A stretch of 64,000 nt of DNA from assembly GCA_037892935.1 (NCBI GenBank), contig JAYXKI010000004.1, positions 2,418,001 through 2,482,000 on the forward strand, written 5' to 3'. Under the pieces are notes generated by a model, which was not told the DNA's origin, searched no databases, and saw only the letters and a list, made by a program, of their open reading frames with translations. Shown here in pieces: positions 8,166 through 34,575 of this stretch (position 1 is its first letter; every line of letters starts with the position of its first letter). This stretch comes from Phlebopus portentosus. Its lineage: Eukaryota > Basidiomycota > Agaricomycetes > Boletales > Boletinellaceae. Position numbers and translations under genes: made by a program.

Positions 8166-9162
8166 ATGTTCACTTCCGAAGAAATCGTCGCGCTCTTGGG
8201 ACCCATCAACTCTGATGACGACTGGAAGGCAGCGGTCGTGAAATTCGAGGCAGACGTCGCCTTGGCCAGGTCGGCAATGGATGAACTAGACCATGGCGTC
8301 ACGACGGTAATTCTGCCGGATAAGACAAAACCGGTCGAATGGATCGCGCCTACAGGTTCGATGACGGTTCGGTGGTTGACGAATCCGGTGATGGAATCTT
8401 TGATGGATGGGTGGAAGGCAACCACGGTGCATAAACTGCGCACTCTAATCAAGAATTTTTGTTAACGAAATTCGACAGGCACGGAAGGAAGCATTGGAGC
8501 AAGTCTGTCCCAAAGGAACGAAAGAAGTCTGGTCGGAGACGGTGTACTCCAACTACTGCGACACGGATGCTCTCCTACGGACGCTGTACTACGATCGACG
8601 GGAATTTTATGCCAGGATGGAGACCAAACGACGAGCTTTCTTCCGCAGACGCAGGGTTTCATTCCATCCTGCCTCGTTCGATTCGACTCGTGGGTTCTTC
8701 TTAGGCGAATCGTTCCCTCCAATGTTCCCGAAACCACGCCCTGACATCGAAAAGGCTCTCGAGAATGTGAGAATGGAGAGCTCCAAGTTCCAACAAACGG
8801 CGAGGTTCACCGGCAACACGGACTACACGCAAGACGAAGCTGTCCGGAGTCATGTAGGTACTTCTTCTTGTCTATCATCTCCATCTAATCCTTCCTACAG
8901 CAAGCGTTCGAATATTGGGAGGATATCAAGCAATGACACCTTCGTGCAGGGCACATCCTTCGCATCGACAGGGTGAAATTGAGAACGGTCCGGCTCCTCT
9001 GGGAATACTACGGCTATTCCATCCTTCGTTGTCGGCTCTATCAACTCGTTCGTGCTCAGGAATCTGAAACGCAACAACAACAACAGCAACAACAACGATC
9101 CCAACAAGTGCTGTCTGAACCTTTCTCTCAACCGCAACAACAACAGCAGCAACAACCAATGC
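8166..9162 (+). pseudogene. antisense asZ gene, 5' part (copy 1b)
   Basis: Exon 1 8166-8426 (87 codons), intron 8427-8478 (GTGCAT...CAG), exon 2 8479-8853 (125 codons), intron 8854-8900 (GTAGGT...CAG, CTAAT branch-like site), exon 3 from 8901. Both junctions keep phase 0. A TGA at 8934-8936 replaces the CGA seen in copy 1a. After it the frame continues through a helical segment (LWEYYGYSILRC) into glutamine runs, until F3 interrupts at 9162. Read across the F3 and F2 insertions (21797-22513, 33998-34575), the ancestral product is about 730 aa with the Zn2Cys6 cluster at residues 576-604. A nuclear DNA-binding regulator of the element is inferred from the domain type, not shown. Confidence 0.78.
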
Positions 9163-9186
9163 TGTTACGAAAATTGTGGATATACA

Positions 9187-10170
9187 ATGCGGCGTGGTAT
9201 TAGACGCTTTACACACCGGATTATGCAGCCTGATCAAGAGCATTTCGAAAGGCTTCAAGGACAGAATAGTGAAGGCGATTCTCGCCCACTAGTACAGCAA
9301 GGACCTGGGGAGGTCGCTGTGGAATATATTCAAGAGGAACCCGATCGACGATATTACGAGGACGAACGCGACGAAAGGGAGGACCCATACGATTTACAGC
9401 AAGGACTAGCTGGGATGCATATTGGACATACTCCTCCACCCGAGCGAAGCTACGTGGACATGGAAGAACGGAACATCGCAAGATACGTGGAACTCCTGCA
9501 GAAGAGACGATATCGACATAGTGCAACCAGACGCTTTGTTCATGAAAGCCTGGTCTGTACAAACTGCTATTTGGCATACCAAAGGAGTTGGGTTCTTTCG
9601 GAGTGGCTCCTCAAGAACTTCGTGGAGCGCTTAGTAACTAGGGAAGGAGCCGATGTCAAGATTCGGCATAAACCCGGACCCTCAGAACGAACGTTTGACC
9701 AACCATTACCGAACCGCAGAATGAGCGCATACGACCACGAGGTATCTGTATGGCTCGGCGATAGGGATATCTATGCACTGAAGGTTGGCGTGAGAGCTTG
9801 GATCAATCAGCATCGTCACCAGACCTTGTGTCGAAACACTGCAGTGGAAGTCGATTGGCCAATCTATTATAGGGCGCCATCGGACGTCGAAAGTCTTATC
9901 GAAGAAGCAACGGATCGAATGCTAGAAGCATGGGAACGATCGGAAGAAGGGGTTATTACAGTCGACGAATGGCGCGGGACGAATCACCTGGGAAGAAGAT
10001 ACAGGTTAACGTCGGGTACCGGACTACAATTCTCCGACATCGATATTGCGGCTAGGCACAGAAGAGTGTCTGCTAAATTTACACAGCCGCCAAGGTTAAT
10101 CTCCGAAGATCGGCAGGGGTTGCCGATCCCAAATCCCGAGATAACGGTCAGCCCCATGATGGAAGACTAA
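9187..10170 (+). CDS. LTR-encoded protein of F3 (U3 ORF, 327 aa), 5' LTR copy
   Basis: ATG at 9187, 327 codons, wholly inside the U3 region. I do not recognise a family. Visible features: an Arg-rich, acidic N-terminal third with PPERSY near residue 79; a helical basic stretch (RYVELLQKRRYRH); a CTNC pair near residue 117; then YDHEVSVWLGDRD and a C-terminal segment rich in Trp and Tyr. No signal peptide or membrane segment is evident. A copy in U3 is carried at the 3' end of genomic RNA, downstream of pol, comparable in position to MMTV sag or lentiviral nef. The decayed LTR at 53416 keeps the same 984-bp span, so the ORF is an old trait of the family. Confidence 0.72.
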   Translation: MRRGIRRFTHRIMQPDQEHFERLQGQNSEGDSRPLVQQGPGEVAVEYIQEEPDRRYYEDERDEREDPYDLQQGLAGMHIGHTPPPERSYVDMEERNIARYVELLQKRRYRHSATRRFVHESLVCTNCYLAYQRSWVLSEWLLKNFVERLVTREGADVKIRHKPGPSERTFDQPLPNRRMSAYDHEVSVWLGDRDIYALKVGVRAWINQHRHQTLCRNTAVEVDWPIYYRAPSDVESLIEEATDRMLEAWERSEEGVITVDEWRGTNHLGRRYRLTSGTGLQFSDIDIAARHRRVSAKFTQPPRLISEDRQGLPIPNPEITVSPMMED

Positions 10171-10512
10171 CGGCAGAAGCTCGGCCGGAGTAACGGAGCG
10201 CCGGCGAAGCGAGATCGCGGCACATGGAAGAAGTCTCTCGTGGGAGGATTGGCGTTAAGGATTAACATGTGAAAGGAACGGAGATCGATAGAAGCCTGGG
10301 TAAAGCTTCTTCGGAACGAAAGGAAATTAGGGCCTGCCTAATAGGGAAGGAAGTAGTTGGTGGTGCAACCAGGAGTTTCGGTAGCACCACCAGAGTTGTC
10401 AGTGGTACTACAGACTTACGAGAGTAGTAGTGACACCAGCTGAAACACATTGTCCTGACCAATGGCGAGGCATGGTCGGTAGTATTTGGTAGTCGGTAGT
10501 ATTCAGTAGAAA

Positions 10513-10521
10513 CTTTATTTA
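10513..10521 (+). promoter_or_regulatory. TATA-like box of F3 LTR
   Basis: TTTATTTAA lies about 31 bp upstream of AGCAAAATTAT (10552-10562). The 11 nt starting there are complementary to the sequence just inside the 5' LTR, which independently places the transcript start near 10550. Confidence 0.55.
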
Positions 10522-10769
10522 AGGCGCCAGCTGAGCGGGGTGTTGTCCCTCAGCAAAATTATTTTGTACTTTCAATCATAACTGTACCCCTTTGATTGAA
10601 CCTCTGCTCTACTACTGGGTCAAGCTTGAGCCTATAGCTCGCTTCTTAGTAGTACATCTAACCTTCGCTACTCTACTCTCCAATTATACATTGTCAGAAG
10701 GAGGAAGCAGGGACTTGTTCCGGTACGCTCGGACTAACCACCTCGTCCGAAAATACTGGTCCTAACATT

Positions 10770-10780
10770 ATAATTTTGCT
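10770..10780 (+). other. Self-priming primer-binding site of F3
   Basis: ATAATTTTGCT, 2 nt inside the 5' LTR, is the exact reverse complement of AGCAAAATTAT at 10552-10562, the presumed first bases of the mRNA. No TGG tRNA-type PBS is present. This is the layout of Tf1-type self-priming chromoviruses, where the mRNA 5' end folds back as primer. Confidence 0.65.
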
Positions 10781-10904
10781 CCAATCCTGGGATAATCAAT
10801 CTTGCTGTTTCATAGTGCAATACCCACTATCGATCAGTAAGTATTGCTCTGCCCCGGGAGGGTTTCTCCTGTGCCTGTTAATTCAGCTAGCTGATCACCG
10901 ATAA

Positions 10905-11822
10905 GCGTATCGTCAACGGCTAAAGCAGGCTTATACACTCCATCGGAGTTTTGTTAGAGCGCTCCATACATTCGAAGAAGAAGTCAATTCGGCGTTTCGC
11001 ACGATAAACTTCTATCGAGGTAAGAAGCACTCAAACACCCCTATCTTAGAACCCTACCGGTCGGTTATACTATCCGCCCTGGAGCTTCGTATCACCGCCG
11101 AAAGACACGAAAGAGTTGGAAGGAAGTTCTTGCTTGTACACGCGGACAACCTGTTGAACGGACACAGTTTCAATTGGGAGGCACTCAGAGGTCCGACGCC
11201 AGTTGAAGAAGAACTACTCGCTCTGTGTCAGGAATATAAAGCGTTCGAATACACCCTACTCGAACATTCTCATTTCCTCCACCAAGTCCTACTACAAGTC
11301 TATCAAGGCAACTATACTACTGCGAAACAGCTATGTCACCGATGGAACTGTGGCAAGCTGGTTGGTCTAGTCTCTGGATTACACTCTGCATCGTCTGGTT
11401 TTCTTCCATGGTATACGTCATTACTCAACAACTCCGAGGTCGAATCAGCCTTCTTCGAGGCTTTGGAACGCTATGGACGTGGATGGAACGGCAAGACAAC
11501 GAAGGAAGTTCCCCACTCCGTCGTGCCGGTCGGAGATTTCTACTCCAAACTCAACGACTGGCAGTTCCTCAACCCGGACCTGGAGAACGTATGGAATCCG
11601 CTCTGGCACGCATCAGCGAACGACTCGACAGTCTACACGGACGCTTGGACCGAATGGTCAGTACTGACGGACTACCCAACCAAGTTGTCTCCGCCCTGCG
11701 ACACGCCGTCATCGACCTCGACAATCGACTTACTAGCGTTGATCGGTCCCTCAGAACTCTCACAGCTACTGTCGCTCGACTCTACGACATGGGCTCTCAA
11801 TACTCCGAGAACCTTACCGTAG
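10905..11822 (+). CDS. F3 leader ORF a, no ATG (unknown)
   Basis: An open frame of about 306 codons beginning right after a TAA at 10902-10904. It contains no methionine codon over its protein-like length, so it must be reached by a non-AUG start, splicing or frameshifting if it is expressed. The translation looks like folded protein (YRQRLKQAYTLHRSF, then Trp-rich segments such as DWQFLNPD and WNPLWHAS). It overlaps the 635-codon ORF b by 490 nt in a -1 relation. I recognise no family. Its position between PBS and gag is unusual for Ty3/gypsy elements. Confidence 0.4.
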   Translation, partial: AYRQRLKQAYTLHRSFVRALHTFEEEVNSAFRTINFYRGKKHSNTPILEPYRSVILSALELRITAERHERVGRKFLLVHADNLLNGHSFNWEALRGPTPVEEELLALCQEYKAFEYTLLEHSHFLHQVLLQVYQGNYTTAKQLCHRWNCGKLVGLVSGLHSASSGFLPWYTSLLNNSEVESAFFEALERYGRGWNGKTTKEVPHSVVPVGDFYSKLNDWQFLNPDLENVWNPLWHASANDSTVYTDAWTEWSVLTDYPTKLSPPCDTPSSTSTIDLLALIGPSELSQLLSLDSTTWALNTPRTLP

Positions 11823-13240
11823 AAGGACAGACACTGGGGGAGTTTCTGGCGCATATTCAGGGACATGTCGGGGATGCGATCGCCGAGGCAGTCATCACCA
11901 ACCTCAGGCGAGAAGGCGAACAGCGAGACGTACGGATCAACTACGCGTTCGGTATTCTTCAGGCTCGTATTCTGGGAGCGGTAACAATGGCCATTCAGGG
12001 CAGTCAGTCAGCCCTTGCTCAACAAGTGGTCAACTCCCAGCAAGAAATTATTCGGCTCACTGGTACGGACTTCCTGCAGTTACACACGCAGGCTAGCTAC
12101 CTGGTCGAACAGGTTGAGGCTATTCGAGCCCGGATCAGCAATGCCGAGGAAGAACTCGTGGCCCAGTACTCGATCACGGAAGGCATTCGTCGGATCCAAC
12201 AAACGATTAGGCTTCGTCAATCCTACCTGACGCAGCGAGCTAGGCGAGGAAGGGCGAGGTTGAGCCCTGACTCCCCGCTGCAAGGTAGAGGCCTAGGTCT
12301 AGCCAGCCGCTTCGAAAGCGTGAGCTCGGACTCCGACGACGACCAGATGCCCCACCTGATCCCAGCAAGTGAACGCTTTGTGGATCAGATGGTTGAGATC
12401 ATTCGCCAGAGCAGGGAACCTGAAGGAACGGACACTCGAACAGGACAACCGTCGTCGCAGTTGCGACAGCAGGCAGTAGAAGTTGGAAGGAACTATGTCG
12501 CCGAGGTAGTTGCGGAAGGAGGGCTGGTAGCGCCTACTGCGCTCGCCCAAGAGGAACAGGAAGTCGAAGGAAGCATCGAAGTCGAAGAAGATCTCCCGGA
12601 CTACGTCTCCACAGAAACGCAACCCGGAAGCCTGGACCAGCAAGCAGAAGAACTGCTGAGAGAGGTAATTCCCGAGTCACCACAGCCTTGGCCATCCAAC
12701 GACGGATGGGGACCGCCTCCCGATGCTGGGGAGGCATGGGAGGCGGACAACACGGCGGAAACGGGTTATGGTACGGGAATCCGGGAGCTCATGTGGAACG
12801 AGCAGGGAGAACTCGTCGAGGGAGCGATTCAACGGCTGGGATGGAATGGCCACTACGTCGAAAGGAATCATATTCAATACCCGCACCAGGACTCGCCGCC
12901 AGGATCGCCTACTCCAAGTGCTCTTGAGCTTGAGGAGAGAGAAGCAAGGCTCCAGGCGGTCAGTGAGTACTCCCCAGACTCTGATTATATCTATGATCCT
13001 ATCATTCGTCCTAACAGCTGCCCTATACCATCGGTCTTTCTCGACATACGAGAGGGACCACTGAGGCAGGGGGTAGCAAACATGGCGATGGTAGTTTGGG
13101 TGCGGGGTAACAATGTAGAAGAGCCAACCAGCGAGGATCAAGAGTACTTCGATGCAAACGACGAATGGGAGACAGAAGAGGAAAGCGAGGAACACGAAAG
13201 CGGCGAGGAACGATACGAAGCTCGGGAAGAAAGGAGATAG
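11333..13240 (+). CDS. F3 leader ORF b (635 aa, unknown, coiled-coil)
   Basis: ATG at 11333, 635 codons. The first 70 residues include a hydrophobic Trp-rich stretch but overlap ORF a and may not be translated. From about residue 85 to 290 the sequence is regular, heptad-like and charged (ARISERLDSLHGRLDRM, LEQVEAIRARISNAEEE-type), suggesting a long coiled coil. The rest is acidic and proline-rich with a very acidic C-terminus. No zinc knuckle or enzyme motif. It ends 197 bp before gag. It could be a captured gene, a split Gag domain or an accessory protein; I cannot decide. Confidence 0.55.
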   Translation: MSPMELWQAGWSSLWITLCIVWFSSMVYVITQQLRGRISLLRGFGTLWTWMERQDNEGSSPLRRAGRRFLLQTQRLAVPQPGPGERMESALARISERLDSLHGRLDRMVSTDGLPNQVVSALRHAVIDLDNRLTSVDRSLRTLTATVARLYDMGSQYSENLTVEGQTLGEFLAHIQGHVGDAIAEAVITNLRREGEQRDVRINYAFGILQARILGAVTMAIQGSQSALAQQVVNSQQEIIRLTGTDFLQLHTQASYLVEQVEAIRARISNAEEELVAQYSITEGIRRIQQTIRLRQSYLTQRARRGRARLSPDSPLQGRGLGLASRFESVSSDSDDDQMPHLIPASERFVDQMVEIIRQSREPEGTDTRTGQPSSQLRQQAVEVGRNYVAEVVAEGGLVAPTALAQEEQEVEGSIEVEEDLPDYVSTETQPGSLDQQAEELLREVIPESPQPWPSNDGWGPPPDAGEAWEADNTAETGYGTGIRELMWNEQGELVEGAIQRLGWNGHYVERNHIQYPHQDSPPGSPTPSALELEEREARLQAVSEYSPDSDYIYDPIIRPNSCPIPSVFLDIREGPLRQGVANMAMVVWVRGNNVEEPTSEDQEYFDANDEWETEEESEEHESGEERYEAREERR

Positions 13241-13437
13241 GCCCTGGTTTAGAGCTGGGAGCTTGCCAGGAGGAAGAAAGACGCCCAAGAACCGACCGGG
13301 GAGGAAGGGTAAGGTGGCTAGTTGGAAAGCGGAGGTGGTACTCGCTGGATAACTTAGCTACTAAACCATGTATTATTGTAATGCGCTGAATGAAGGTGAT
13401 ACTCATAAAAATGTTGGTTGAATTCGTCTAGGTCATT

Positions 13438-14460
13438 ATGTCAAACAAAGATATCATGAAGTATCCCTTGTTTAAGGGAAACCCTTATGAGTCGCTTGAG
13501 AACTTCCAGAATCAAATGATCAGCCGGTTGAATGAAAAACATCCGAGCGACCCAGTCAAAAGGGTTAAGATTATTTTGGAATGTCTGCGAGGTCAAGCTC
13601 AGACTTGGGTTAATGGCAAGTGGGCCGTGAACAGAAATCAATTAGTCTCCACCTACAAGCGAGATGCGGACGGCAAGCTTGTTGTAGACAAGAAGGGTGG
13701 ATGGGACACCGAGGACGATCTATGGAACGAATTAGCGCTCAACCATAATGGCATTTTTGGACTTCAAGAAGAAGCCGAGCGGAATATTAGGACGATTTAT
13801 CAGGAACGGGCGCGGGTGAAGCAGTATAACAGGGCCTTTGACGACATTAGGATGAGGCTGCCAAAGCACTACGACCATCAGGCACTGATTTACGAGTACA
13901 AGAGAGGACTCAATCAAACGATCCTAAAGGCCCTGCTTACGAATACAGACCACCCAGAATGGGACCTGAACCAATGGAAGGAGAACGCTAGTAATCTGGA
14001 GGCCAGTCTGATGGCTGCCAAGGTGATAGGCAGCAATAGGAAGTACACCCCTATGTTTAAAGATGGGCAGGCAGTATCGTACACGCCAGTGCCCCCAGAA
14101 GCTCGCCGTCCAGCTGAGTTTCTGGGTGAGCCTATGGACATCGACATGTCTAGGCGCTTTACTAGGGGGTCCCGAGGAGATGCCGGGATATGCTGGGCAT
14201 GCGGCAAGACAGGTCACTTCGCACGGGACTGCAACAATGTAGGGCGAGACACACAGGGAAGCCGTGGACACCGAACCAACTACAAGAGACGGGTGCAGAA
14301 GAGACGATCTGGCAAGACTGGCCGCTTCCTAAAACGCCGGGAAGTTGGGATTAGCAGCGATTCTGAAATGGAGGAACTACTGGACAAGAAAACGAAGTTA
14401 CCAAGGCGTAAGGAACGGGCTTTGTATGCCCTCGAGGAGGATTCCGAGGAGGATTTTTGA
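13438..14460 (+). CDS. gag: F3 Gag (capsid and nucleocapsid)
   Basis: 340 aa from ATG 13438. A typical Ty3/gypsy capsid-like helical region (PLFKGNPYESLENFQNQM near residue 10; LRGQAQTWVNGKW near residue 50) is followed by one CCHC zinc knuckle CWACGKTGHFARDC around residue 245 and an Arg/Lys-rich tail. Forms the particle and binds RNA. The stop TGA at 14458-14460 overlaps the pol frame, which lies in -1. Confidence 0.9.
   Translation: MSNKDIMKYPLFKGNPYESLENFQNQMISRLNEKHPSDPVKRVKIILECLRGQAQTWVNGKWAVNRNQLVSTYKRDADGKLVVDKKGGWDTEDDLWNELALNHNGIFGLQEEAERNIRTIYQERARVKQYNRAFDDIRMRLPKHYDHQALIYEYKRGLNQTILKALLTNTDHPEWDLNQWKENASNLEASLMAAKVIGSNRKYTPMFKDGQAVSYTPVPPEARRPAEFLGEPMDIDMSRRFTRGSRGDAGICWACGKTGHFARDCNNVGRDTQGSRGHRTNYKRRVQKRRSGKTGRFLKRREVGISSDSEMEELLDKKTKLPRRKERALYALEEDSEEDF
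14451..14460 (+). promoter_or_regulatory. Candidate -1 frameshift site, F3 gag/pol
   Basis: In the gag frame GAG GAT TTT TGA contains G GAT TTT, of the GGAUUUA type used by MMTV pro/pol, directly before the stop. The pol frame is -1 and open across it from about 14413. No structure downstream was assessed. Confidence 0.5.
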
Positions 14461-17400
14461 AGGGCCGCCAGTCAACATCGGACACTGGCGAGGGCTCGAA
14501 GGACACACAAGAGATAAAGCGCCGATGGACTATTGCTAGACCAAACTCCAACCATCCCACTATACCCATTGACGTCATTCAGGGACAGAAAAAGGTTAAT
14601 CTCTCGGCTATGATTGACTCCGGATCTGCGATCACTACTATTAGCCCCATGGTTGTACAGAGCCTAGGGCTGAGAACAGTGCCTGCAGAAGGTAATTATA
14701 CCATTCGGAACGCCGATGGATCGATTAATCATGGTGGATGGACTCGGAACGTCAGAGCAATAGTGGACACAGGGATTACAAGAGGTTTAATGGACATCGC
14801 AGTGGTGGATACACACGAAGACAAGTTTCTCATAGGAAATGATTGGCTTGAACGGCATAAGCCAACCATCGACTGGACAAAGGGGATTCTTCGCAAAGGC
14901 GGGAAGGAAATTGCATTTAATGGAACGGCACGATTGCGTTCCATACAGCTAATCCTAGCCCCAAGGAAGCTCCGGAAACGCAGAAGATGGCGAAGAATTC
15001 CAGACTACATTCCACCCGAATGGGATGCCGATGATGAAAAGGAAGAAGCTTGGGAAACTAGGGTCTATTACCACAGCGACATCGAAACAGGACAAGAAAC
15101 TGAGAAGGAAGACATAGAAGAAGAACCTACGATCGTACCACCAGACAAAGGAAAAGAAAAGGAATCAGCAGCACCGCTTGTCACGTTCGAAGAAGTCATG
15201 CACAAGCCGCCAGAACTCTCCTTCGCTAAGCAAGAAGGAAGATGGAAATTCTTTTGGTTCGGGGATAAGTGCCGAATAACGAAGGACGATCAAAACTGGC
15301 ACAACTTTAACAGTCTCGAGGATGCAGATGGTGCAGTATACCGCACCATGGTCAGAGAAATGGACAAGGGTGCCAAACATGATGAACTCCTCGATGAATA
15401 TGGCGGCATGTATATGGCGCGTCTTCAGCTGATAGCGATTCAGGGAGGCCTGGGAACAACGACCTCACCAACAACATCTGAAGACCAAGCAAGAGTGCGG
15501 GAAGAAATACAGGCACAAATGACAATCGACGCAGAAGGATCTGATACGAATAGAAGGAAGAAGCCTAGTGTACCACCTAAAGGAGGAAAGCCCGGACACT
15601 ACGCACCTGATCCTCTCAAGATGCGTCGACAGAAGAGCGGAGGAAGTGGTACGGATTCAAACCCTGTCATGAGGAGTATAAGGGTGGAGTGGACTCCTCC
15701 ATCCGTGCACGAGGGCCACAATGACTCAACCCTGGCAGTGCAAAAGCAGTCGGTAAGCTTCACCACACGAAGCAGAGGTACAAGCAGGAGTACTTCGGGT
15801 CGGGAGCGCCGTGGAACTAAGGCCACGAAGCGTACTAGGTTCGGCCACCTAGCGAGAACTCCTCCTACGAGAAACCGAGGAGTGACTAGACATGAGACGC
15901 CGTTCAAGGGTAGGCTAGTGTCTAGGAAAGTGGTCCACCCCAAAGGGAGGGTAGTCCCACTCAATTGGCACAGGGCCGAAGTTAGTACGCCGCAACCATC
16001 AAGTAGGCTAGCTTCGGGAGCTCAAGTGCGCCCGCGAAGACCACGGTTTAAGAACCAAATGCAGGGCCCTGCTCCGACAGGGAAAATAAACGGTAAAGGT
16101 AACAGGTTCATTTCGAATTATGCCGTGATGGAGCAGGAGCTCTCGCAGGGGCAGAAGAGGCGCCGATGGCGCACACCTGTTGACTCGGTCATGCAGCCGC
16201 CCAAAGTGGAAAGAAAAGTGCTAGAGAGAAGAGCTGGATCTGAGACGGAGTTCAAGGGTATCCTAGGATCGCACAAGCCTGCTACCTTAGGGGAAGCAGA
16301 GGACGCCTCTCGAAGAGGAGAGCCACCCAAACCTCCTCACTGGATCCGCCGCCTAGAGCATCGACAAGTCGCATCACGGAGAGAACGCCTTCTCAAATAC
16401 AACAGCATAGCTCAAAAATATGCACAAGAGAAAGCACTCGATGAAAGGATGGCAGGCTCTGCTGGCGACAAATCTCTCGAAGACATTCTTCCAAAACAAA
16501 TATGGGAGTTCAGGGATAGGTTCGACAAGGATGCTGCTAGGCGGCTACCTAAGTCGGGACAATGGGACATGAAGATCGAGCTCCTACCAGGAGCAGAGCT
16601 CCCGAAACCTGGACCGGTATATCCACTCGCTCCTGCTGAAAAGCGAGCGGTAGAAGAATGGATTCGCGAGGACCTGAAGAAGGGATGGATTCGTGTTGTA
16701 GGAAACCAAGTACCAGCTGAAGAAAAGGCGAACACTTGCGCACCAGTATTTGTCATAGCCAAGAAGACAATAGGGAAGGATGGCAAGCCGGAGTATAGGA
16801 TTGTTATCGACTATAGAGGACTGAATGCGGTGGTCATTCCAGACCACCAACCGATGCCTCTATTACATATGCTCCCGGACGACCTTGCACATGCCAAATG
16901 GTTCTCTACACTGGATTTGCGAAGCGGGTATAACAACATCAGAATACACCCTGGGCATGAGAAGTATGCCGCCTTCAGGACTCATATGGGAGTATACCAG
17001 CCGATGGTAATGCAGTTTGGATTAATGAATGCACCTGCGGTATTCCAACGTGCAATGAACGAGCTCTTTCAGGACATGATTGGGCAGGGCATACTCATTT
17101 ATTTGGACAACATTATAGTCTATGCGGAAACGGAACAGGAACATTGGGACCTGTTAGCAGAGGTATTGCGCAGGTTGAGGGAAGCAGACTTCTTCTGCAA
17201 ACCAGAGAAGTGCTACTTCGGAAAGAAGGAACTCGATTATTTAGGATTTGTGGTTAACCAGTCGGGCATGCAGATGGATCCCTACAAGGTAAAGGCAGTT
17301 CAAGAATGGCCAGATTTGTCAAGCAAGCGAGACATTCGAAAGTTTATCGGTTTTGCAAACTTCTACCGAAAATTTATTGAAGGTTTCGCCAAGATCGCTA

Positions 17401-22942: not shown

Positions 22943-23018
22943 GTTACGACGAGTTACGACGAGTTTCGGTAGGTTACGAAGCGAAACGGAGCTATACGAC
23001 GCGGAACGAAGCGATACG
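22943..23018. repeat. 10-bp-phased array in F2 LTR
   Basis: Eight units at exact 10-bp spacing starting 22943: GTTACG, GTTACG, GTTTCG, GTTACG, GAAACG, TATACG, GGAACG, GATACG. The CG is the invariant part. The 5' LTR has the same array near 33080-33156. Confidence 0.85.
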
Positions 23019-23308: not shown

Positions 23309-23316
23309 TATTTATA
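23309..23316 (-). promoter_or_regulatory. TATA box of F2 LTR
   Basis: TATAAATA on the minus strand, about 540 bp into the LTR in element sense; also present in the 5' LTR near 33447. Confidence 0.6.
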
Positions 23317-23876
23317 ACTTTGTCCGAACCTGAGCCATCGGAGCGTCAGGGAGCATAACGAAAGGAAATTGGAAGTGAAAATCATAAGGGAACGCACGGG
23401 AACAAGGTACGAGGTGAGCATATCTGGAAGGTGGCGAGATAATGACCATAGAGCATAATACGACATGTGAGCGCACACGGAATAATGAGCATAAGAATCA
23501 TAAGGAACAAAACAAAATATGAACGCATATGGGACTCAAAAGGGGAAAAGCCGGAGCGCGTCGCGTCGGGTCGAAACTTGGGAGGTGTCAGGGGCCGATT
23601 GCAGATCCTTCAATTTACCTCTTGTGCCTGGGTTTAGTAAGACGAGCTAGCTAAGTCAGCCTTTGTAAGTTTTCGACTGGGTGGCTCGAGCATCCGAAGG
23701 TTCTTCCTACGCAGCGGTCGAGTGCGAGAGGCTACAGTAGTCCATTCCACTTCGAATCGAATCGATCCGCACTGAGTTCCGCTGTTACGATGCTGATCAC
23801 CGCGGAACACGTGTCACGTGCGCGATCTCGGACCTAGCGTGTCGATGCTTCTTACATCTCCCGGTTTCTTGAAATC

Positions 23877-23894
23877 GTGACTGTCCGCAGTCAC
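23877..23894. promoter_or_regulatory. CTG-N4-CAG palindrome upstream of asZ2
   Basis: GTGACTG-tccg-CAGTCAC, 97 bp before the asZ2 ATG. It occupies the place of the F1 CCG-N4-CGG palindrome with both arms changed symmetrically. Each change is a CpG transition, so symmetric decay is an alternative to selection. Confidence 0.45.
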
Positions 23895-23990
23895 ACTCCC
23901 AATAGGGTTAGACTCGGCGTCTCTAGATTCTTGACGCGTAAAACGCGGTTCGCGACGCGTTCCGTTCATCTATCCTCTCTTCTCTCCATC

Positions 23991-25911
23991 ATGTCCCATC
24001 AACAGCAACAACAACAGCGACAACAGCAACAACAGCAACAGCAGCAACAACAGCCGCTGTTCGACGAGATTCCTGTCTCAGCGGAGGGCTTCGTGTTCAG
24101 CGACACGTGGCTTTACGGTGTCGGAAACCAGGTCCAGGTCATCGAGCGTTTGCACGAGGACGTGGATCAGAGACGGTTCGTGAGGATGACCGTTGCGCAG
24201 TCCGTTGAGAGGGCGGAGGAAATGCGTGAGATCCAGGTGCGCTTTCTTTTCTGTCTTCATCTATTCTCTTCGTTCCGTTCCGACTTCCTGAATTTCATAG
24301 ACCGCGAGAAGGAGACTCGAGGACCTTCGGCCCGAGTGGGTGCCCATCGATTTGATGTGGCCGCCGTATGCCACGCATTTCTGGGCAGAAAGCGTGGTTG
24401 CGCTTGCGGATCGTTGCGCAACCCTCAACATCAACTGCGACCAGCTCGATGCGCTCAAGGCTTCGTACCTCGAGGACGAAAAGCGTTCGAAGCCGGACAC
24501 CGAAGTCTACGTTCAGCAATGGTGCGCGGGTTTGACCGGTCTAGAAGGGGCGATCGGTCGTCATCGCGATCTGCTACGGCCACTGGTTGGCCATTTCGAC
24601 GAAAGGAAGGACGAGCTGGAGAATACGGTCATGAAGATCGATCTGGACCAGGTGAGTGCTCATTCTCGCTTCTTCTTCTAATCTTGCTAACTGTTGAACT
24701 TCTAGCTATGGCGGATGTTTTGGGTCGGTCGTCGTCCTCCCGGCACGGAGATTGACGACGTCTAGACCGAATTCGGGTGGCTCGCTTGGGCGGAGATCTG
24801 GGGAATCCTCCTCTCAGCGCCGCTGAAGAGTCACGTCCACGAGGCCCTGCGGTGCTGGACTGCGTATGAGGAGAAGTGCTGCCCGTGCTCAGTCAAAGCC
24901 GCAGACGCACTCGTTGCGCTGCATTCTGACGTGCATCTCGGCGGATCGGGCCCCTTTTTGTCGGGTATATCCGAATTGACCGAGTCTGCCCTCAGGACGC
25001 TGCTGGGTCGTCAAGACTTGAGTCAGGTGGAGCGGGAGTCCATCATCAGCGAGCTGGAAGATCGTGCGGACCGAGTTTCGTACTTGAGCGAGCTGGAGAA
25101 GATGGCAAGCGCAGTCAGGGTTCCATCGCCGTCTTCGGATCGCGAGAGAGATGAGAGGCCCACGAAGCGGCCTCGGATTGTCGATTATTCGAGCGACGAG
25201 GAGTCGGTAGAGGGGAACTGCAACAACAGCAGCAGCAACATTCCTTCTGCTGCCAACGGTTTCTCTTCTGGGGGTCCGGCTGGAGATGACGACTTTGGGG
25301 CTTTTGACAAAGCGCCCCTCTTTCTTCCGGACGGTGCTGTCAGCGAGAGCAACAGCAGCAACAGCAATCCTCCGGCTGCGAGCGAGTCTCCGAGTGCAGA
25401 ACGAATAGAAGAGGATGAGGGAAGCCAAGGCGATGGCAGGGACGGTAGCAGCAGTAGCAGCAGCAGCAGCAATTCGTCTGCTGGTGGCTGGGTCGTGCAT
25501 GATGAGGGGTGTGAGAGGTGCACGAGGGCAGGCCGGGTCTGTGAGGGTTTCCCTGGGCAGGCCTGTGATTACTGCCGCACGAAGGCCAGGCGGCGATGCG
25601 AGCTGGCTATGCACGGGAGGGCTGCGCGTCGCCTGCGGAACGAGCGGGTGGAATGCAAGATGCGCGAAGCTCATCAGCACGCAACGGCGCAGGTGCTGAG
25701 GATGCCGGTTGCGCCTGTCCTCGAGGTGAGTGACATCGAGGAGTTGGTCGCCGGGACGGACGAGAGCGCCGTCCATTTCCGGATGGCGGCCTTGGAGAGG
25801 CGCGCGCGCGTGTTGTTCCGCGCTGCAGATCAACTGCGCAACCTAGCGGAGGAGATGCTGGCCGAGACCAGTGCGCTAGGAAGGGTGGTAAGGGGTGAGG
25901 AGGAAGAGTAA
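23991..25911 (+). pseudogene. antisense Zn2Cys6 gene asZ2 of F2
   Basis: ATG 23991. Exon 1 ends 24236 (82 codons, starting with a poly-Gln run), intron 24237-24300 (GTGCGC...TAG), exon 2 24301-24651 (117 codons), intron 24652-24705 (GTGAGT, GCTAAC branch-like, TAG), exon 3 24706-25911. All junctions keep phase 0, giving about 600 aa. One nonsense codon TAG (24763-24765) is present; otherwise it is open. Domains: helical N-terminal region, acidic Ser/Asn-rich linker, zinc cluster CERC...CEGFPGQACDYC...C at residues 468-497 (C-X2-C-X6-C-X7-C-X2-C-X7-C), and a helical C-terminus. Arrangement parallels F1 asZ, so both derive from one antisense gene. The role is inferred to be a nuclear regulator of its element. 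Confidence 0.75.
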
Positions 25912-26479
25912 GGAGTAAGAGGCGTGAGGAGAGGGGGTAGAGTGCGTCAAAACAACGCTTTTTCATCTAGTGTCCCCTCATGGGACGAATAAAAAAAACA
26001 AAGAAAAAGAAGAAAAAGAAAAAAAAAAATAATTTGAACTTTTGTATATATATAGTTTTTGTGCGTTTTTGAATGTTATGAATTTTTGTTTGCGGTTTTG
26101 ACGTTTGGGGTGAAGGTAAATAATAATGGAAGAATGAGGATTGAGATATGAGAAAATGAGAGATTAGAGAAAATAAGCGGTGATTATTGAGTCGAAAGGA
26201 CTGAGAGAAAAATAAGCTAGTTGCGCTGTTTTGCGCAGCGCTACGCCGGGTTGCGATTCGCAACTGAGCGCATGAAGGTGAACACGCGGTTGAACGCGTA
26301 TCTCGGTTTGCGCGAACACTTTTCCGAGGGTCTAAATGCGGTTGAGCGCGAATAATTCAAAGGAAGGAAAAATCGAGAGGAAAATCGGGAGAGGAATGAA
26401 ATGAAACGAATAATCGAAAGGATCTAATAGAAGAAGAATGTCAGTGGTTTGCATGGAGGGTATCAGAACTGAATGGTGT
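25912..26479. other. AT-rich spacer between asZ2 and convergent pol (F2)
   Basis: No gene seen. Poly-A/G-rich run at 25988-26032 and AT-rich sequence to about 26200. A 10-bp-phased array (GTTGCG 26220, TTTGCG 26230, GCTACG 26240, GTTGCG 26250) is followed by further GCG-rich motifs to about 26345. Confidence 0.6.
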
Positions 26480-29400
26480 TTATAAGTTGAGGTTTTGAGA
26501 TTCCGACTGGGCGTCGGAAACGTCGTCTTCTTCTGGTTTGATTGGGGGGTTGGCGTCGTCCTCGAGTTCGTCATCTGCTGCGTTTACGAGTTTAGTAACG
26601 GGTACAGAGAGATTCGAATGAGGAAAGTAAGGAATCAGGCGAAACGCAGCTACTCGGATCTTCGAGACTGATCCGTCGAGTTCTGCAATGACATATGAGC
26701 CGGCCTTTGTTTTGCGTACTACCACGTAGGGTCCTAGGTATCGGGGCTTCGTCTTGCGATTAAGTTCCATTTTGATGCACGTATTTCGCAACAATACGAG
26801 TCGTCCTGGCTGGAAATCGTAGTCTTTGATTTTGGCCTTGTTGATCTCTTCGAATTGTCGCGCGTATGCATGCCGGGCATCGGAAACTAGTCTGGCGATT
26901 CGATCCAGTTCCTCAGGGCGCTTCTGGAGCTGCTTCGCGTGAGTTGTGATAAGTTCCGCAGTCGGAACAGGCGTATCGACCGGGGGGGCTAAGTACGTGG
27001 CTTCGGCGAGGTCGAAAGGTAGAATAGGCTCTACTCCGTGTACCATGTAATACGGGGACATTCCGGTCACCTTCTGGATGGTGATTCTTTCTGCCCAAAA
27101 TACTGAGTAAGCTTGGTCGCTCCATCGTTTGTCATTACCGTCTACAGCCTTTATCAGGGCTTCCTGCACATCGTAGTGGCGTCTTTCTACAATTCCATTG
27201 GCGCGAGAGTTGTATGCTGAGATGCGTATGTGATTGATGTGATATCGATCCTTGAGGTAATCGAGTGCTGCGATGAACGGTTTCCCATTATCTGTTACGA
27301 GCTCGGGACAAGCGCCGTATCGGCAAAGGAGGTCTTGGAAAATGAACTGGGCTATCGCTTTGCCGGTTTCTTCACGCAAGAGTCGAAATTCGGGGTAACC
27401 AGATAAAGCACATCGGGCTTGTACGATGTACCGGTATCCTCCAGACTTCGGCATTACCTTGGTGTCGATGTGTATGCGCTGGAAAATCGATGGTATTGTT
27501 GGTACGACCGGGGGAATTAGAATGTTCTTCGTCTGGCGAACTTGGCACTCATGACAGGTGCGCACGTAGTATTTGACGTCTGGACCGAGGGTAGGCCACC
27601 AAAATCGTTCCAGGAGTCGAATTCGAACAGAGTATACTCCCTTGTGGCCTAGATCGTCATGCGCTTGCTTTACGAGGTTCCATCTGCGTTCCGGTTCGAT
27701 TACGACCTGGTGTCGTCCGTTCCGCACTTTCTTCCACAAACGTCCGTCTCTAGCGAAGAAATTTGCCGCGTACCTGATCAGTGCTGCATAGCCACGATCG
27801 TCTAACTGATCCGGTCGCTTCTGGCCGATCAAGAAGCTCTTGACGTCATCCAAGCGAGCGTCTTTCGGGTTAGCTTTCTCGGAGCTGGGAAACAAGGTCA
27901 AAGCGATGTCAGTCATCTTCAGGAAGTCAGAGTCGCCGTTTCTCTCCCGGCGTTTCCTATTCGATCTCTCGAGGTATCCTATTGATCCGAGAGTTGCTTG
28001 CGCATTTCCAGGGCTCGATGGGAGTCGTTTCGCTTGGTTGCGCACACGTAAGTCTGTGCAATACGTCGTAACCGGGTTTTCGATGTAGAATCCATACGTG
28101 TCGTCTATCCACTCTTCGTATCCTTCGTCCGGAGGTGGATCTTCGGGTGCCGGGGGTCGTCGAGAAAGTCCGTCGGTGCATTTGAAGTCCGCCGCCGGGA
28201 TGTGGCGAATCTCGAAGTCGAATAGAAGTATCCCGGCGATCCAGCAGTTGATCGTAGCGTTTGGTTGTAAGTCCGGGTTGTTAATCATGCCTTTGATGTA
28301 TGCTGCGTCCATTTCTACGACAAGCTTGCGCACTCCGATGAGATATAGTCGCATGGCGTGTAACGTACGAAATAGTCCGTAAAGTTCGATTTTCGGTTGG
28401 GAGTATGTTGCTTGCGTGGCATTCCAGTTTATGGAACTGAAGCGATTAATCCTTCTTCATCCATCTACGTGTTCTTGACCCAAATACCATCCTACTCCGA
28501 TAATCGATGAATCCACCGCAAGTACGACTTCGAGTTCCGATTGATAGTCTATTGCGCATAGAGCTGGACACCTAATGACCGCTTCCTTCAACTCGTCCAT
28601 TGATTCCTGTTCTTCGTCTGTCCAATCGAAAATGTTGTTCTTCCGAGTGAGTCGATTGAGGGGGCGTGCCATCTTGGTGAAATCCTTAATGAAAATTCGC
28701 AGGACTCCCACTGTTCCGAGGAATCCTTTGACTTCGGTTACCGATCGGCATGGCGGCCAGTCACTGACCTTCTGGACTTTCGATTCGTCTGGCTCTCATC
28801 CATAATATGTCAGTTTGTGTCCGAGAAATACGATTGACTCAACACCGATCTCCATTTTCTTTCCTGAGTACGTCCCTCCCACTGCCTTGACTCGCTGCAA
28901 AATTCGATTTACGTCGCATATATGCTCGTAAATAAATCGCCTAATCCCTGGATTCTCTGGCAGGGTTTCGTAAGAGCCATCCGGGAGTTCGTAGCGCATT
29001 TTGGGACCTAATCCGGGCGAATCGTCTGCATACGGATCGGTACAGTGCGGAATCTCGTCTTGTAGGATGAAAGCGACGTCATTGTGCATAATCTGAAGGG
29101 AATTCGTGTATCCCATCGGGAGAACCGTCATTCTGAACGTTCCCAAGGGAGTCTGAAATGTCGTGAGATCTCGAGAGCGTTCGTCTAGAACTCGCTGGTC
29201 AAAAGCCACATAGAAATCGAGGCTCGAATAACAACTTCGTCCGCCGCAACGCTCCGCAATGGTCTCTATATTCGGCGGAACGGCTGAGTCTCAGACGGAA
29301 ACGCCATTCATGTCTTGCAGGTCGAGTATAAATCGAAGGGAGACTCCATCTTTCTTGACTAGGCAAAACCATCGTGATCGGTACGAGGAGTTAGATGGTT

Positions 29401-30073
29401 CAATGGCTCCATTCTTGATTTTCTCGCGAATCAGGTTGATGGTACGCTCGAGAATACCCAGAGGAATAGGTATGTTCTTGTGTACCCACGGTACATGCGG
29501 TACCGTCGGGATGCGAATCGGATCGAAGTATTGCGCATCGAAACTACCCCGTTCCGCTTCCGTCCATGCTAGTGCTCCTTCCTGCAGCATAAGTAGGTTA
29601 GCAACTAGCAGCCTTTCTTCGGGCCATAAGAACTGATTCTCGTCAATCCTGAGGGCTTCAAACCGCTCCTTCGTTAGTCTGCCTATGGGCGTAAACGGTT
29701 TCGGTTTCTTTGGTATTTCGGGCAGTCCTTCGAGCAGGTTCGGATGCCTCCTTCGGACGATCCGAAATTCTTCTGGTAGTACCCCGGGGACGGGCCGTAC
29801 TTTCTGAGTGACGCGTTTGTACATGAGTACCGCCGGGTCGTCGTCGTCCGGGGTCTCTAGAATACATGATCTATAAGGTCGATTTGAATAGTCAGTAGCG
29901 AAACGCATTGGGTCTTTCATCAGCTTCCGAAGCTGGTTACTAAATAGTGAGGTGAAAGTGTCGGAAACATCGATAGAATAGATAGAAAACGTATTGTTGA
30001 GGCTTGAACACGAATAATCGCCTACGTCTCGCTGACGTCTTAGTATCAGTTCCTCGACGTCTGCTGAAAACCC
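26480..30073 (-). pseudogene. F2 pol pseudogene (RT, RNase H, integrase)
   Basis: A single minus-strand frame entered by -1 shift at 30067-30073 and ending at TAA/TGA near 26480, broken by TGA at 29291-29293, 28796-28798 and 28457-28459. RT shows SSLDFYVAFDQ and the catalytic variant YADDSPG-type box (YADD, near 29030). RNase H has AVDSSIIGVGWYLGQE. Integrase: HDDLGHKG ... CHECQVRQ finger, then IHIDTKVM, TDNGKPF and IVERRHYD for DDE. The C-terminal SH3-like part is YLGPYVVV. Each nonsense codon can be a CGA to TGA change. Non-functional as it stands. Confidence 0.88.
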
Positions 30074-32649
30074 TGTTGCGCAACGTTGCGCAACACGTTC
30101 TGAATTCCAGTTGCGACCTTACTATGTCGATTCCTGTCGTTGGGGTCTGATAGCGTTATATGCTGGTCTCCCGAGGTATAATCCTTGGTTTCGCATTCGG
30201 TTACTGCGAAGAAGGGTCGTCCGAGTAGCGCCTGGAACGGTGCCTGACGAACGACATGCACTTGCAGGGAAAGATCAATTCCGGCTATCGTAAACTTGGC
30301 GTTCGGGATTAATCCTATGGTGGCCGACTTCGCTGTGTCCGCCATCTCGATGGTCGTGCTCTGGTCCAGTGATAGGGGCACTTGAAGTTTTTCCCAAACG
30401 TCTTCCCTAATCAGACACACTGCTGCGCCTTGATCGAGTACGCACTCCACTTCCATCGCGTCCTCCACTACGGCTGTAATCGTACGAAGGGGGAGAGTTG
30501 CTTCCGCGGTCACTCCCGACGTTCCGATGGACAGAATCGAGTCCTCAGGTTGTTGCGATGCGGTTCCGCACAGTTGCGTGGCGTAACTCGGCGATTCGAC
30601 GAGATTCACATCGGCAGCGTTATATCTCTTTGCGGTAGTGAGTTCCTTCAGTTGCTTTCATAGTTCGGGGGCGATCGATAACAGTTCCCTTTGGCTAAGC
30701 GTAATGCTCGTGTCGAGCGTCCGAGTGAGCACGTTAGAGACAGCATTAGAATCTTCAACGGGGACTACGTAGCGGTATTGGGGTTGGGGGTTCGAGGGTT
30801 TTCTAATATCATCCCGCTGCGGTGACGAACGTGAAACCGCCGGGGACTTAGGAATAGGGGGTGGCGACTGCTGCGCCTTCGAAGCCCCTCTTCCCGGCGG
30901 TCCCACCTTAGTCGGAATGACTACTCCGTCGAACTTCTGCCTTTTACCAGTCGCCACTTTCTTCTTTGCCTCGTTGAGCAAGATTTCTAAACGTTCCACT
31001 TCGTAATCGGTCTCTTCTGTCTGATCCTCGCCAATTTCCTGGAGCATAGCTGATGCTATCGGCTCGGCCGGGGTTTCCGGGTGCTCGGCGACTTCGATGA
31101 TGTTGACTGGATGTGACGGGTTCGGCTTTAGCAAGTTGTCAATTCGCTCCATCAGGTTCCGGCCCGAAACCCTACTTGATACGAAGGCTCCGTTTGGCAT
31201 GACTACTCGTCCGTTCGAGTCACGTAGACACTTTCCGGCCTGGATATACTCGAGTACCATCGGGCACGACCTTATAAAGTGGCCGGGATCGCTGCAGAAT
31301 GCACATCCGGGCGTGCGAGCCAATGGGGCCGGTTGCGGACCTGTTGCGATTCGAGGGCCCTGGCCTCTAGTGAGCGATTCCAGTGTTACCTGAAAACCCT
31401 TCAGCGTTTCCCAAACTTTACTCAAGTCCGTTTCTTCCTTCTTGACGGTCATTCCATGTCCTCCCGACGATGCGCTCATCGTTGCGCTCGTTCCGCCGCT
31501 CATCGGGTCGGATCCGGTCTGATCGACTGCGGATCCCAAAAGAATGTACATGGCTGCGTTTGCTACTTTCTCGGTGTCATAGGGGTCGCCCCTCTCGTGG
31601 TCCGGGTCCTTGATTTCGAGCCTTTGCAGGATATCCTTCCTAGTCTGGCCCGAAATGCCTCGAAGAAACACGAATTTTGAGTCGTTCTTGGTAAGTTTGT
31701 TGCTGGCAACTAGATACCTGGCTCTGCGTAGGAACTCGCGATGATAAGTGCCGAATTCATCTCTGGTGTGAATACCTTTCTCGGCCCATTCGGCGATGAA
31801 CTGCTCCAATTCGCCCCTAGAGTATCTCTTGCCGTCTGCCAAACTTGGATAAAGCTTCTTGACGGCCGTTTTGAAATTCCCGACGCTCGCAGGGGCGGCA
31901 GAAACTTCAGGTAGGGTCTCCCATACTTCTGCAACGTCAGTCTTCGCATAGTACAGGTACCCACGTCTGATGGTAGTCGACGCATCCCAGTTGGAATCTA
32001 TTGCGATTGCATCCACGTCGTCGAAGAAGCGGAACAGTTCCTTCGGATTGGAACCGTCGAATACTGGTGCTCTCTTGTCACCTCGAAGAGGTGGTCTAAC
32101 TGCAGCCATCTGGTTCGATATACGCTGCAACTGCTGATAATTGGTCTGAAGTTGGTTAAGGATCTGCAGGTTGCTTCCCAGTCCTTGGAGGTGGTGAGCG
32201 AGAGTCAATCCGCTTGGTTGCGACTGTTGCGCAAGCGGATCGACTTGGATCGCTTGATCGGAGGTTTGAGGCTGTCTGAGCCTAGCGGGGTCTGGGTAAT
32301 CGAGTCGAACAGTGATATCCTCTGGCGACGAGGATTCTTGCTCGGAGAATTTGGTAGGTAGATCGGTTTCTTGGAAACTAAAAGGAGACGATTCGGCCGA
32401 CGGCTCGAACAATGGTAGGGTACTGGACTCGGTTAGAGGTGAAGGTTGAATTACTGAAGAACTTAGCGACGATGCTGTGGTGCTTCTAGCGCTTGCCCTC
32501 TGCCTAGGTGTCCGAGGTGTGACTTGGGGTAAGGCTTGGTGAACTACGGGGATACGGGCTGATTGGCTTCGGGTAGTCCGAGTACTACCTGGAGTTTGGT
32601 TACTCGTTTTGGACGAACAGTGAATTTCCCCCCTCGCCGGGGGCTCCAC
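30046..32649 (-). pseudogene. F2 gag-pro frame with one TGA
   Basis: One frame of 868 codons with a TGA at 30658-30660 between Gag and protease. Gag: conserved core RGDKRAPVFDGSNPKEL, zinc knuckle CAFCSDPGHFIRSC, conserved SQRELLSIAPE before the stop. Protease: VLDQGAAVCLIRED with DQG in place of DS/TG, and FQALLGRPFF. F1 has no stop at the equivalent point. The decayed F2 copy at 57066-57068 has the same TGA, so either parallel CpG decay or a readthrough codon of the family. No ATG is present in the first 170 or so codons; the start is uncertain. Confidence 0.8.
30067..30073 (-). promoter_or_regulatory. -1 frameshift heptamer GGGTTTT, F2 pro/pol
   Basis: In the pro frame CAG GGT TTT CAG contains G GGT TTT; the pro stop follows at 30046-30048. 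The -1 frame is open from here through the RT. The same heptamer is at the same place in F1 (38465-38471). Confidence 0.7.
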
Positions 32650-32650
32650 T
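32633..32650 (-). other. Primer-binding site of F2
   Basis: In element sense AGTGGAGCCCCCGGCGAG directly follows the 5' LTR. TGGAGCCC would pair with a tRNA 3' end GGGCTCCA. F1 has nearly the same site (40939-40956). I did not identify the tRNA. Confidence 0.6.
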
Positions 32651-33993
32651 TGAAACTCCTGTGCACTGTCTGATAGCTGAGGAGTGTCACAGTTCTTGGG
32701 GGCTGTTCAGTAAGATTAAAATGAGTGGAAAGAGAAGGGTGACTCTTGGGGGGGAAAACTAGAGAAGCGCTGATGCGTCAATCTGGGTTCCAGAGCGGTT
32801 CCGGAAGGGATGGAGGAGAAATGGGATTGAAGGCTGCTGGATGTATGCAAGGGGGGGGGATTGGATTAAAGGAGATAGGCGAAGAAGCAAGGCGGGAGAA
32901 GTCGAAGCAAGGGGGATTGGCGATGGCGGTGCGAAGGTAATTGATGTCCTCACAGGTAATCCCTCGATGGATTCGAACCCTGGAGGCGGAAGACGATGGG
33001 ACGAAGCTTAGAGAAGGACCTCCCCTAAGCGCTGACGATTCGAAGGTGATCCCTTCGAGGATCTGACACGATATAACGGGTTACGATGAGTTACGACGAG
33101 TTTCGGTGGGTTACGAAGCGAAACGGAGCTATACGACGCGGAACGAAGCGATACGCAAGGGACTCAAGTGAGACCTTGCATAGAGGCGTAGGGAGGAGAG
33201 ATGAGGGTCTCTGACTTCAACACGGGTTGAACTGATCACACTGGGCTCGGGTACGGCTGCAGAGCAGGAGACTCGAGGCGTATGAGACAGAACTATCGTG
33301 TATTTGTGGGAGATAGAGTCGAGGAGAGTACAGGAAGAGTCGAATTGGTCTCGACTGTAGCTGAAGTGGGTTCAAGCCCGAGCTAAACTGTTTTCTGCTA
33401 AAACTCTCCAGGCTAAAACTGGGCTCCTACTACAAGTTGCTCGCCTATTTATAACTTTGTCCAAACCTGAGCCATCGGAGCGTCAGGGAGCATAACGAAA
33501 GGAAATCGGAAGTGAAAATCATAAGGGAACGCACAGGAACAAGGTACGAGGTGAGCATATCTGGAAGGTGGCGAGATAATGACCATAGAGCATAATACGA
33601 CATGTGAGCGCACACGGAATAATGAGCATAAGAATCATAAGGAACAAAACAAAATATGAACGCATATGGGACTCAAAAGGGGAAAAGCCGGAGCGCGTCG
33701 CGTCGGGTCAAAACTTGGGAGGTGTCGGGGGCCGATTGCAGATCCTTCAATTTACCTCTCGTGCCTGGGTTTAGTAAGACGAGCTAGCTAAGTCAGCCTT
33801 TGTAAGTTTTTGACTGGGTGGCTCGAGCATCCGAAGGTTCTTCCTACGCAGCGGTCAAGTGCGAGAGGCTACAGTAGTCCGTTCCACTTCGAATCGAATC
33901 GATCCGCACTGAGTTCCGCTGTTACGATGCTGATCACCGCGGAACACGTGTCACGTGCGCGATCTCGGACCTAGCGTGTCGATGCTTCTTACA
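32651..33993 (-). repeat. F2 5' LTR
   Basis: 1343 bp, same ends as 22514-23856. Differences are mostly transitions, many at CpG. Followed at 33994 by target duplicate CCGG and by the continuation of 1b asZ. Confidence 0.93.
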
Positions 33994-33997
33994 CCGG

Positions 33998-34575
33998 CTA
34001 ATGGTGGTGGTTCTGGTGGTGACGACAACGATAATGACGACGACGACGATGACAACGACAACGACGACGAACGATTGAGCAATGGGCGCGTTCGTCATTG
34101 GGTTCCGTGCGACCAGTGCCAGAAGCGTGGCCGTGATTGCGTGGGTCTTCCGCAGAGGACCTGCGCTCCGTGCTTGAAGCAGGCGAAGGGCTGTAGTCTA
34201 GCCACGAAAGGCAGGGCTGTAGCCGCGAAGCGTAAGGCAGCTCGGGAGGCGCGCGATCGGGAAGCAAAACGCCGGAAAGTCACGGCTCTGGCGGCCAGAT
34301 CGGTGGGTGGTCGCGTTGAGCATGAAGCTCTGCAGCAGGAGGTCGGGGAATCCGAGCTGCAGTTCGTGCTGGTGCGGATGGATCACCGGGACAAGGTCCT
34401 GTCCCGGATGCTGAACGAATTCAGCGTCCTCGTAGCGCAGGCACACGCCGATTGTCATCTGCTGCTCGAGTTGGCTGGGGTGAAGACGGGGGAAGGTGAA
34501 GACGAGGAAGAGGAAGATAGAGGGGAAGTGGAGAGGGTTCGTCAGTCGAAGGGGAAAGGTAGGGCTCGGGAATAG
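33998..34575 (+). pseudogene. antisense asZ gene, 3' part with Zn2Cys6 cluster (copy 1b)
   Basis: Continues exon 3 from 22513. It starts in a Gly/Asp repeat, then the zinc cluster from TGC 34108 to TGT 34192: C-X2-C-X6-C-X7-C-X2-C-X6-C with basic residues between, the fungal Zn(II)2Cys6 pattern. A Lys/Arg-rich region follows (KRKAAREARDREAKRRK, nuclear-localisation-like), then a helical segment, a Glu-rich stretch and the end at TAG 34573. It is open throughout. The apparent upstream start inside the F2 LTR is an artefact of the insertion. Confidence 0.8.

Follow-up and report, generated by a model that had tools for sequence, protein, structure and literature searches.

An antisense, intron-bearing gene with a Zn2Cys6-like cysteine cluster in three families of fungal LTR retrotransposons

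Main finding

Three families of long terminal repeat (LTR) retrotransposons, F1, F2 and F4, carry past pol, on the opposite strand, an intron-bearing gene that is named asZ here. The gene lies beside nearly all pol matches scored, its protein has a six-cysteine cluster that is conserved among the families, and in F1 and F2 the protein is under purifying selection. It was first seen in the window, a stretch of 64,000 nucleotides (positions 2,418,001-2,482,000 of contig 4), and was followed through the genome searched (38.4 Mb, 23 contigs). By the likeness of the element proteins, asZ would belong to a clade of Ty3/gypsy elements in Sanghuangporus. It may be an accessory gene acting in trans on the expression of its own element, a joint reading to which we give somewhat better than an even chance.

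Structure of asZ

F1 is present in the window as three copies (A, B and C) and F2 as one, in agreement with an earlier note made from the letters alone. That note also described a gene, antisense between pol and the 3' LTR, whose exons join in phase over two short introns. The borders, position and orientation all agree in F1 and F2; the four introns (two in each family) are 47-64 nt long, with GT..AG ends and phase 0 at every junction. No asZ copy inside the window is both whole and open; stops, insertions or the window edge interrupt each one:

8166-8426, plus strand: F1 copy A asZ exon 1, 87 codons; same frame in the C20 copy (L070/L043)
8479-8853, plus strand: F1 copy A asZ exon 2, 125 codons, preceded by intron 1 (8427-8478)
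8901-9162, plus strand: F1 copy A asZ exon 3, start; premature stop at 8934-8936; cut by the element F3; intron 2 is 8854-8900
21788-22513, plus strand: F1 copy A asZ exon 3, middle; Gln-rich and acidic; overlaps the F3 target repeat at its first bases
33994-34575, plus strand: F1 copy A asZ exon 3, C-terminal part; holds the six-cysteine cluster
23991-24236, plus strand: F2 asZ exon 1, 82 codons
24301-24651, plus strand: F2 asZ exon 2, 117 codons
24706-25911, plus strand: F2 asZ exon 3; six-cysteine cluster; premature stop at 24763-24765
5300-6407, minus strand: F1 copy B asZ, C-terminal part; two stops ahead of the natural end
42585-43775, minus strand: F1 copy B asZ from its ATG (43775) through exons 1 and 2 into exon 3; the gene is split by copy A
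1-378, minus strand: F1 copy C asZ, 5' end; ATG at 378; remainder left of the window

The left edge of the window truncates copy C, but exons 2 and 3 of this copy read open (L063). In full, F1 asZ encodes 747 aa in the C20 copy, from exons of 87, 125 and 535 codons, and F2 asZ encodes 600 aa in L010, from exons of 82, 117 and 401 codons. For the copy comparison, loci were taken for 30 of the 68 F1 matches, and for F2 21 of 30 loci, with fragments left out. The GT..AG ends are retained in F1 at intron 1 in 26/30 copies and at intron 2 in 27/30, and in F2 at both introns in 20/21 aligned copies. The F2 gene is open in 13 of 21 genome copies. An F1 copy was called open on exons 2 and 3, and L052 was counted although its intron 2 donor is changed.

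The third family, F4, was revealed by integrase searches and is 48-51% identical to F1 and F2 in integrase. Past the pol stop at C19 (L069) there is an antisense gene on the plus strand. In copy L072 it has five exons, four phase-0 introns and a product of 478 aa, with junctions set by eye; the NCBI models P0006 and P0007 have these junctions partly in common and partly different. L069 and L071 have a frame shift at a poly-G run in exon 1. The evidence for the element is the integrase match and a putative 3' LTR, which appears to end near L069:738, where several genome matches end.

The nearest named proteins to F1 asZ are from Sanghuangporus sanghuang, a medicinal polypore, and are 99% identical across the queried F1 part. 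Predicted NCBI gene models in three Sanghuangporus species have the same borders around exons 2 and 3 as F1 and F2. The S. weigelae model is 731 aa long and the S. baumii model 605 aa, the latter with one more residue at the first junction. Among the S. sanghuang models, two have an extra intron within exon 1 and one begins in exon 2. Four Sanghuangporus assemblies, from S. sanghuang, S. weigelae, S. baumii and S. vaninii (JBKPUO, JBKPUL, JBKPUN, JBKPUM), are described as annotated with BRAKER3 after repeat masking (PMC12001456). No homologs outside Sanghuangporus were found at E <= 0.01 with the F1 or F2 query, and the F4 query found S. sanghuang alone at E <= 1; the search needs shared 5-mers and distant relatives may escape it.

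Prevalence beside pol

A pair was defined as a pol match with an asZ match on the opposite strand at most 1.5 kb past the pol 3' end. The integrase searches scored the best 89 of 506 and the best 92 of 510 candidates, so the prevalence figures are not censuses. The pol matches used were 60 F1 and 26 F2 of the 89 (the other three are F4) and 31 F4 of the 92 (the others are F1 or F2). The asZ matches used were 68/95 for F1, 41/106 for F2 and 33/33 for F4; those dropped were cross-family matches, the match to the single-copy gene L073 described below and four short F2 fragments. asZ is present by 57/60 F1 and 23/26 F2 pol matches, and by 30/31 of F4 (together 110/117). The median gap between pol and asZ is 453 bp in F1, 606 bp in F2 and 446 bp in F4, and among the same pol matches there are no same-strand pairs. 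Viewed from asZ, a pol partner stands by 57/68 F1, 23/41 F2 and 30/33 F4 matches; many of the partnerless ones are fragments or adjoin unscored pol pieces.

Selection on the protein

Between families the synonymous sites must be saturated, judging from a protein identity of ~30%, and the ratio of nonsynonymous to synonymous substitution rates (dN/dS) was taken among genome copies within each family. With stratification by sequence context, open copies give 0.32 [0.22-0.47] for F1 asZ (17 copies) and 0.57 [0.41-0.81] for F2 (13 copies). Both are below 1 and point to purifying selection. The end of pol, as a control on 15 of the 17 F1 and 9 of the 13 F2 copies, gives 0.17 [0.10-0.26] and 0.34 [0.18-0.67]. 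All intervals are approximate, since the copies are related, some divergence is post-insertion and broken copies are excluded. Wrong frames give 1.29-2.26, except the antisense frame sharing wobble positions (0.32, 0.61), in which a low value is expected opposite any coding sequence. The raw NG86 values (0.22, 0.36) gave way to the CpG-stratified estimate, given that synonymous sites vary and introns barely do. The F1 introns (8427-8478, 8854-8900) differ by 0.2-0.5% between copies versus 4.5% at synonymous sites, and many of the changes behind this gap are probably at CpG.

By segment, the C-terminal helix region is the most constrained part of F1 (0.17 [0.07-0.43]). The same region of F2 has no sign of purifying selection among the genome copies (1.61 [0.75-4.39]), and the interval for the F2 cluster segment (1.01 [0.18-4.51]) is too wide to inform.

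Six-cysteine cluster

The cysteine spacing given in the earlier note, C-X2-C-X6-C-X7-C-X2-C-X6-C in F1 with X7 as the last gap in F2, is correct, as are the Gln-rich and acidic regions. The C-terminus of the F4 protein has C-X2-C-X6-C-X8-C-X2-C-X6-C. All three proteins satisfy the Zn2Cys6 spacing of C-X2-C-X6-C-X5..12-C-X2-C-X6..8-C, and none of 200,000 composition shuffles of each reproduces its pattern. The cysteines are retained between families while most other cluster residues differ. By profile, the nearest solved relatives are transcription factors. In F1 the cluster is followed by basic stretches, and a long helix is predicted after the C-terminal cluster. The structure model of a full-length F1-type protein has a mean predicted local distance difference test score of 44.9 and was not used.

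The same six-cysteine cluster occurs in a single-copy gene, L073 (C3:2959398-2960129; L073:1599-2330). Its cluster is identical to that of F2 at 25/63 positions, with a weaker likeness to F1, and a genome search returns only itself and asZ copies. Among the matches listed there is no F1, F2 or F4 integrase match on its contig, and no solved relative of the protein was found by sequence at E <= 1. L073 may be either the source or a domesticated copy, and offers a case of element-host exchange. A neighbour of L073 resembles by eye the beginning of a GH3 gene, but Pfam gives no confirmation.

Palindrome at the edge of the 3' LTR

Between the 3' LTR and the asZ ATG, F1 and F2 agree at 33/38 bp by the LTR edge and little further in. 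This block contains GTGACCGTCCGCGGTCAC in F1 and GTGACTGTCCGCAGTCAC in F2, with both arms altered jointly. The sites in the window are:

8058-8075, no strand: F1 palindrome GTGACCG-TCCG-CGGTCAC, upstream of copy A asZ; also at 469-486
43866-43883, no strand: third site of the F1 palindrome, one mismatch
23877-23894, no strand: F2 palindrome GTGACTG-TCCG-CAGTCAC, upstream of F2 asZ

The pattern has 80 sites genome-wide and its reversed control none. Fifty of the 80 were listed and compared with 49 asZ matches picked by hand; of these 50 sites, 47 stand 5' of an asZ match. The region upstream of asZ in F4 yielded no palindrome. The palindrome could bind asZ as a dimer, or form a hairpin with a use near plus-strand priming.

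Possible roles of asZ

The earlier note proposed a transcription factor that would regulate or de-silence its own element. Likeness to HBZ of human T-cell leukaemia virus 1 (HTLV-1) suggests a regulatory role, as do the gene model, the cluster and the regions rich in Gln or in acidic residues. A spliced antisense transcript of its own would yield the protein, which is probably nuclear and may bind zinc and DNA through its C-terminal cluster. It would then repress or activate at the LTR/asZ promoter region, a layout that resembles HBZ. The introns may survive because the sense genomic RNA, which is reverse-transcribed, would hide antisense splice sites. A narrower form of this reading is possible, though we hold it rather doubtful: the element would encode its own Zn2Cys6-type transcription factor, kin of L073 and a fungal counterpart of HBZ, perhaps with the cluster halves swapped, that regulates itself through the family-specific palindrome (GTGACCG-N4-CGGTCAC in F1, GTGACTG-N4-CAGTCAC in F2).

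The Pfam profile Zn_clus (PF00172) scores 12.1 (F1), 8.5 (F2) and 13.8 bits (F4) on cluster cut-outs, under the curated cut-off of 21, and a Pfam scan does not list it for the full-length proteins. The assignment to the fungal Zn(II)2Cys6 motif in the earlier note thus stands for the spacing and fails for the profile in every asZ version tested; the plain Zn2Cys6 label was ruled out, and the cluster is best described as Zn2Cys6-like. In F4 a sense open reading frame (ORF) of 573 aa (L069:864-2585), with no Pfam match, lies between asZ and the putative 3' LTR, head-to-head with asZ. This speaks against a promoter of its own adjoining the 3' LTR, as the earlier note proposed, as a general rule. 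A genome search with PF00172 gives 27 matches, none of which coincides with an asZ match. CGG-triplet enrichment, as support for a Zn2Cys6 target, was found in none of seven regions; the highest, upstream of F4 asZ, is matched by 57/500 shuffles.

The protein may instead serve the replication cycle (nuclear entry, nucleic-acid chaperoning or integration-site choice) through a zinc-bound cluster and be no transcription factor, an alternative that we consider a serious minority possibility. Plant antisense ORFs of open role are described at the same spot (PMC7264820), the conserved block by the primer site could serve reverse transcription, and both the sub-threshold profile scores and the basic stretches after the F1 cluster would fit. 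However, the introns and the separate start codon suggest expression apart from gag-pol, the Gln-rich and acidic regions suit a transcription regulator, and the profile relatives are transcription factors.

It is unlikely that asZ is a captured host gene carried as a passenger of no use to the element. Although L073 bears the same cluster elsewhere in single copy, asZ is kept by 110/117 pol matches in three families whose integrases are 48-75% identical, under purifying selection and with many open copies. An effect of the antisense RNA itself, by interference or as a source of small RNA with the ORF as a by-product, is similarly improbable: retroelement antisense RNAs are described as possibly functioning as RNA (PMC7264820), but selection acts on amino acids in the asZ frame and the cysteines outlast the other cluster residues. 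Chance ORFs or an annotation artefact can hardly account for the gene. The wobble-sharing antisense frame also has a low dN/dS and a 317-aa frame is open on the strand opposite F2 exon 3; however, splice sites, phases, start, stop and cysteine pattern are conserved, and there are gene models in three species.

Relation to known systems

HBZ is described as a transcription regulator encoded antisense at the 3' end of its LTR element, as asZ might be. The HBZ transcript begins inside the 3' LTR. HBZ is a bZIP protein whereas the asZ cluster is Zn2Cys6-like, and no common descent is claimed. Fungal Zn2Cys6 factors (Gal4, Ppr1, Pho7, Lac9) have the six-cysteine spacing of asZ, with weak profile and model similarity; asZ differs in scoring under the Pfam cut-off and in its C-terminal cluster, and several matches align the cluster halves in swapped order.

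Zhao et al. 2011 reportedly described the antisense gene brtn of Boty/BcGypsy1 in Botrytis cinerea. As cited, this fungal gypsy gene lies between pol and the 3' LTR as asZ does (PMC7264820, PMC8365987); the likeness is one of position, and the host of Boty, unlike that of the asZ elements, is an ascomycete. The plant Ty3/gypsy aORF-3R genes (Grande gene23, RIRE2, Retand TRP28) are described as similar in position, orientation and presence in most copies, and a nuclear or DNA-binding regulatory role has also been proposed for them (PMC7264820, PMC11963269). They encode other protein families (TRP28, SMC-like) according to the same sources, whereas asZ has the six-cysteine cluster, with two introns in F1 and F2 and four in F4. 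The words "intron" and "transcription factor" are absent from the text of PMC7264820 and PMC11963269. At the level of titles and abstract openings, and with most subscription papers outside reach, the literature yielded no fungal retrotransposon in which an antisense gene has a Zn2Cys6 domain.

Antisense genes at this spot are thus already known in plants and Boty; what is new is the six-cysteine cluster, the presence of introns and the occurrence in three families. Reports of such extra genes go back years, yet no function is known for them. Because its DNA-binding-like domain can be recognised and tested, open copies are many, selection can be measured, and there are a candidate binding site and a small fungal genome, asZ would allow a direct test of whether LTR retrotransposons make their own transcription regulators.

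Nested elements at the locus

The left and middle of the window consist of nested LTR elements. F2 and F3 are both inserted in asZ exon 3 of F1 copy A, a minus-strand element that itself lies within copy B asZ:

9163-21791, plus strand: F3, a chromodomain-type Ty3/gypsy element in copy A asZ exon 3; 5-bp repeat AATGC
22514-33993, minus strand: F2, a Ty3/gypsy element within exon 3 of copy A asZ, with LTRs at 22514-23856 and 32651-33993
35022-42584, minus strand: F1 copy A body; pol 35022-38564, gag 38444-41014, 5' LTR 40957-42584

F1 and F2 have the direct LTRs, gag, order of reverse transcriptase (RT), RNaseH and integrase, and short target repeats of Ty3/gypsy elements. Pfam places RT, then RNaseH, then the integrase zinc-binding domain in copy A pol, and F2 pol was placed by likeness to F1 (DNA ~70-74% identical). 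The F2 LTR pair is 97.9% identical, with target repeats CCAG/CCGG (3/4 positions). The F3 LTRs (~9163-10767 and 20187-21791) are 100% identical and contain a 338-aa open frame; near 53411-55029 there is another, diverged copy of the LTR. Upstream of F3 gag (10905-13240) are two more sense frames of 305 and 666 aa, with no Pfam match above the cut-off.

The target-site repeat ACGG flanks copy A within copy B asZ at 6404-6407 and 42585-42588. The left LTR of copy A (6408-8035) is inverted relative to the right one, has ACGG at both edges (6404-6407, 8036-8039) and adjoins an interior TCCCGGG; possible causes are self-integration, misassembly or an insertion that hit the same site a second time. 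The insertions at 9163, 22514 and 6408 all lie inside asZ exon 3 of an F1 copy, by target preference or by chance.

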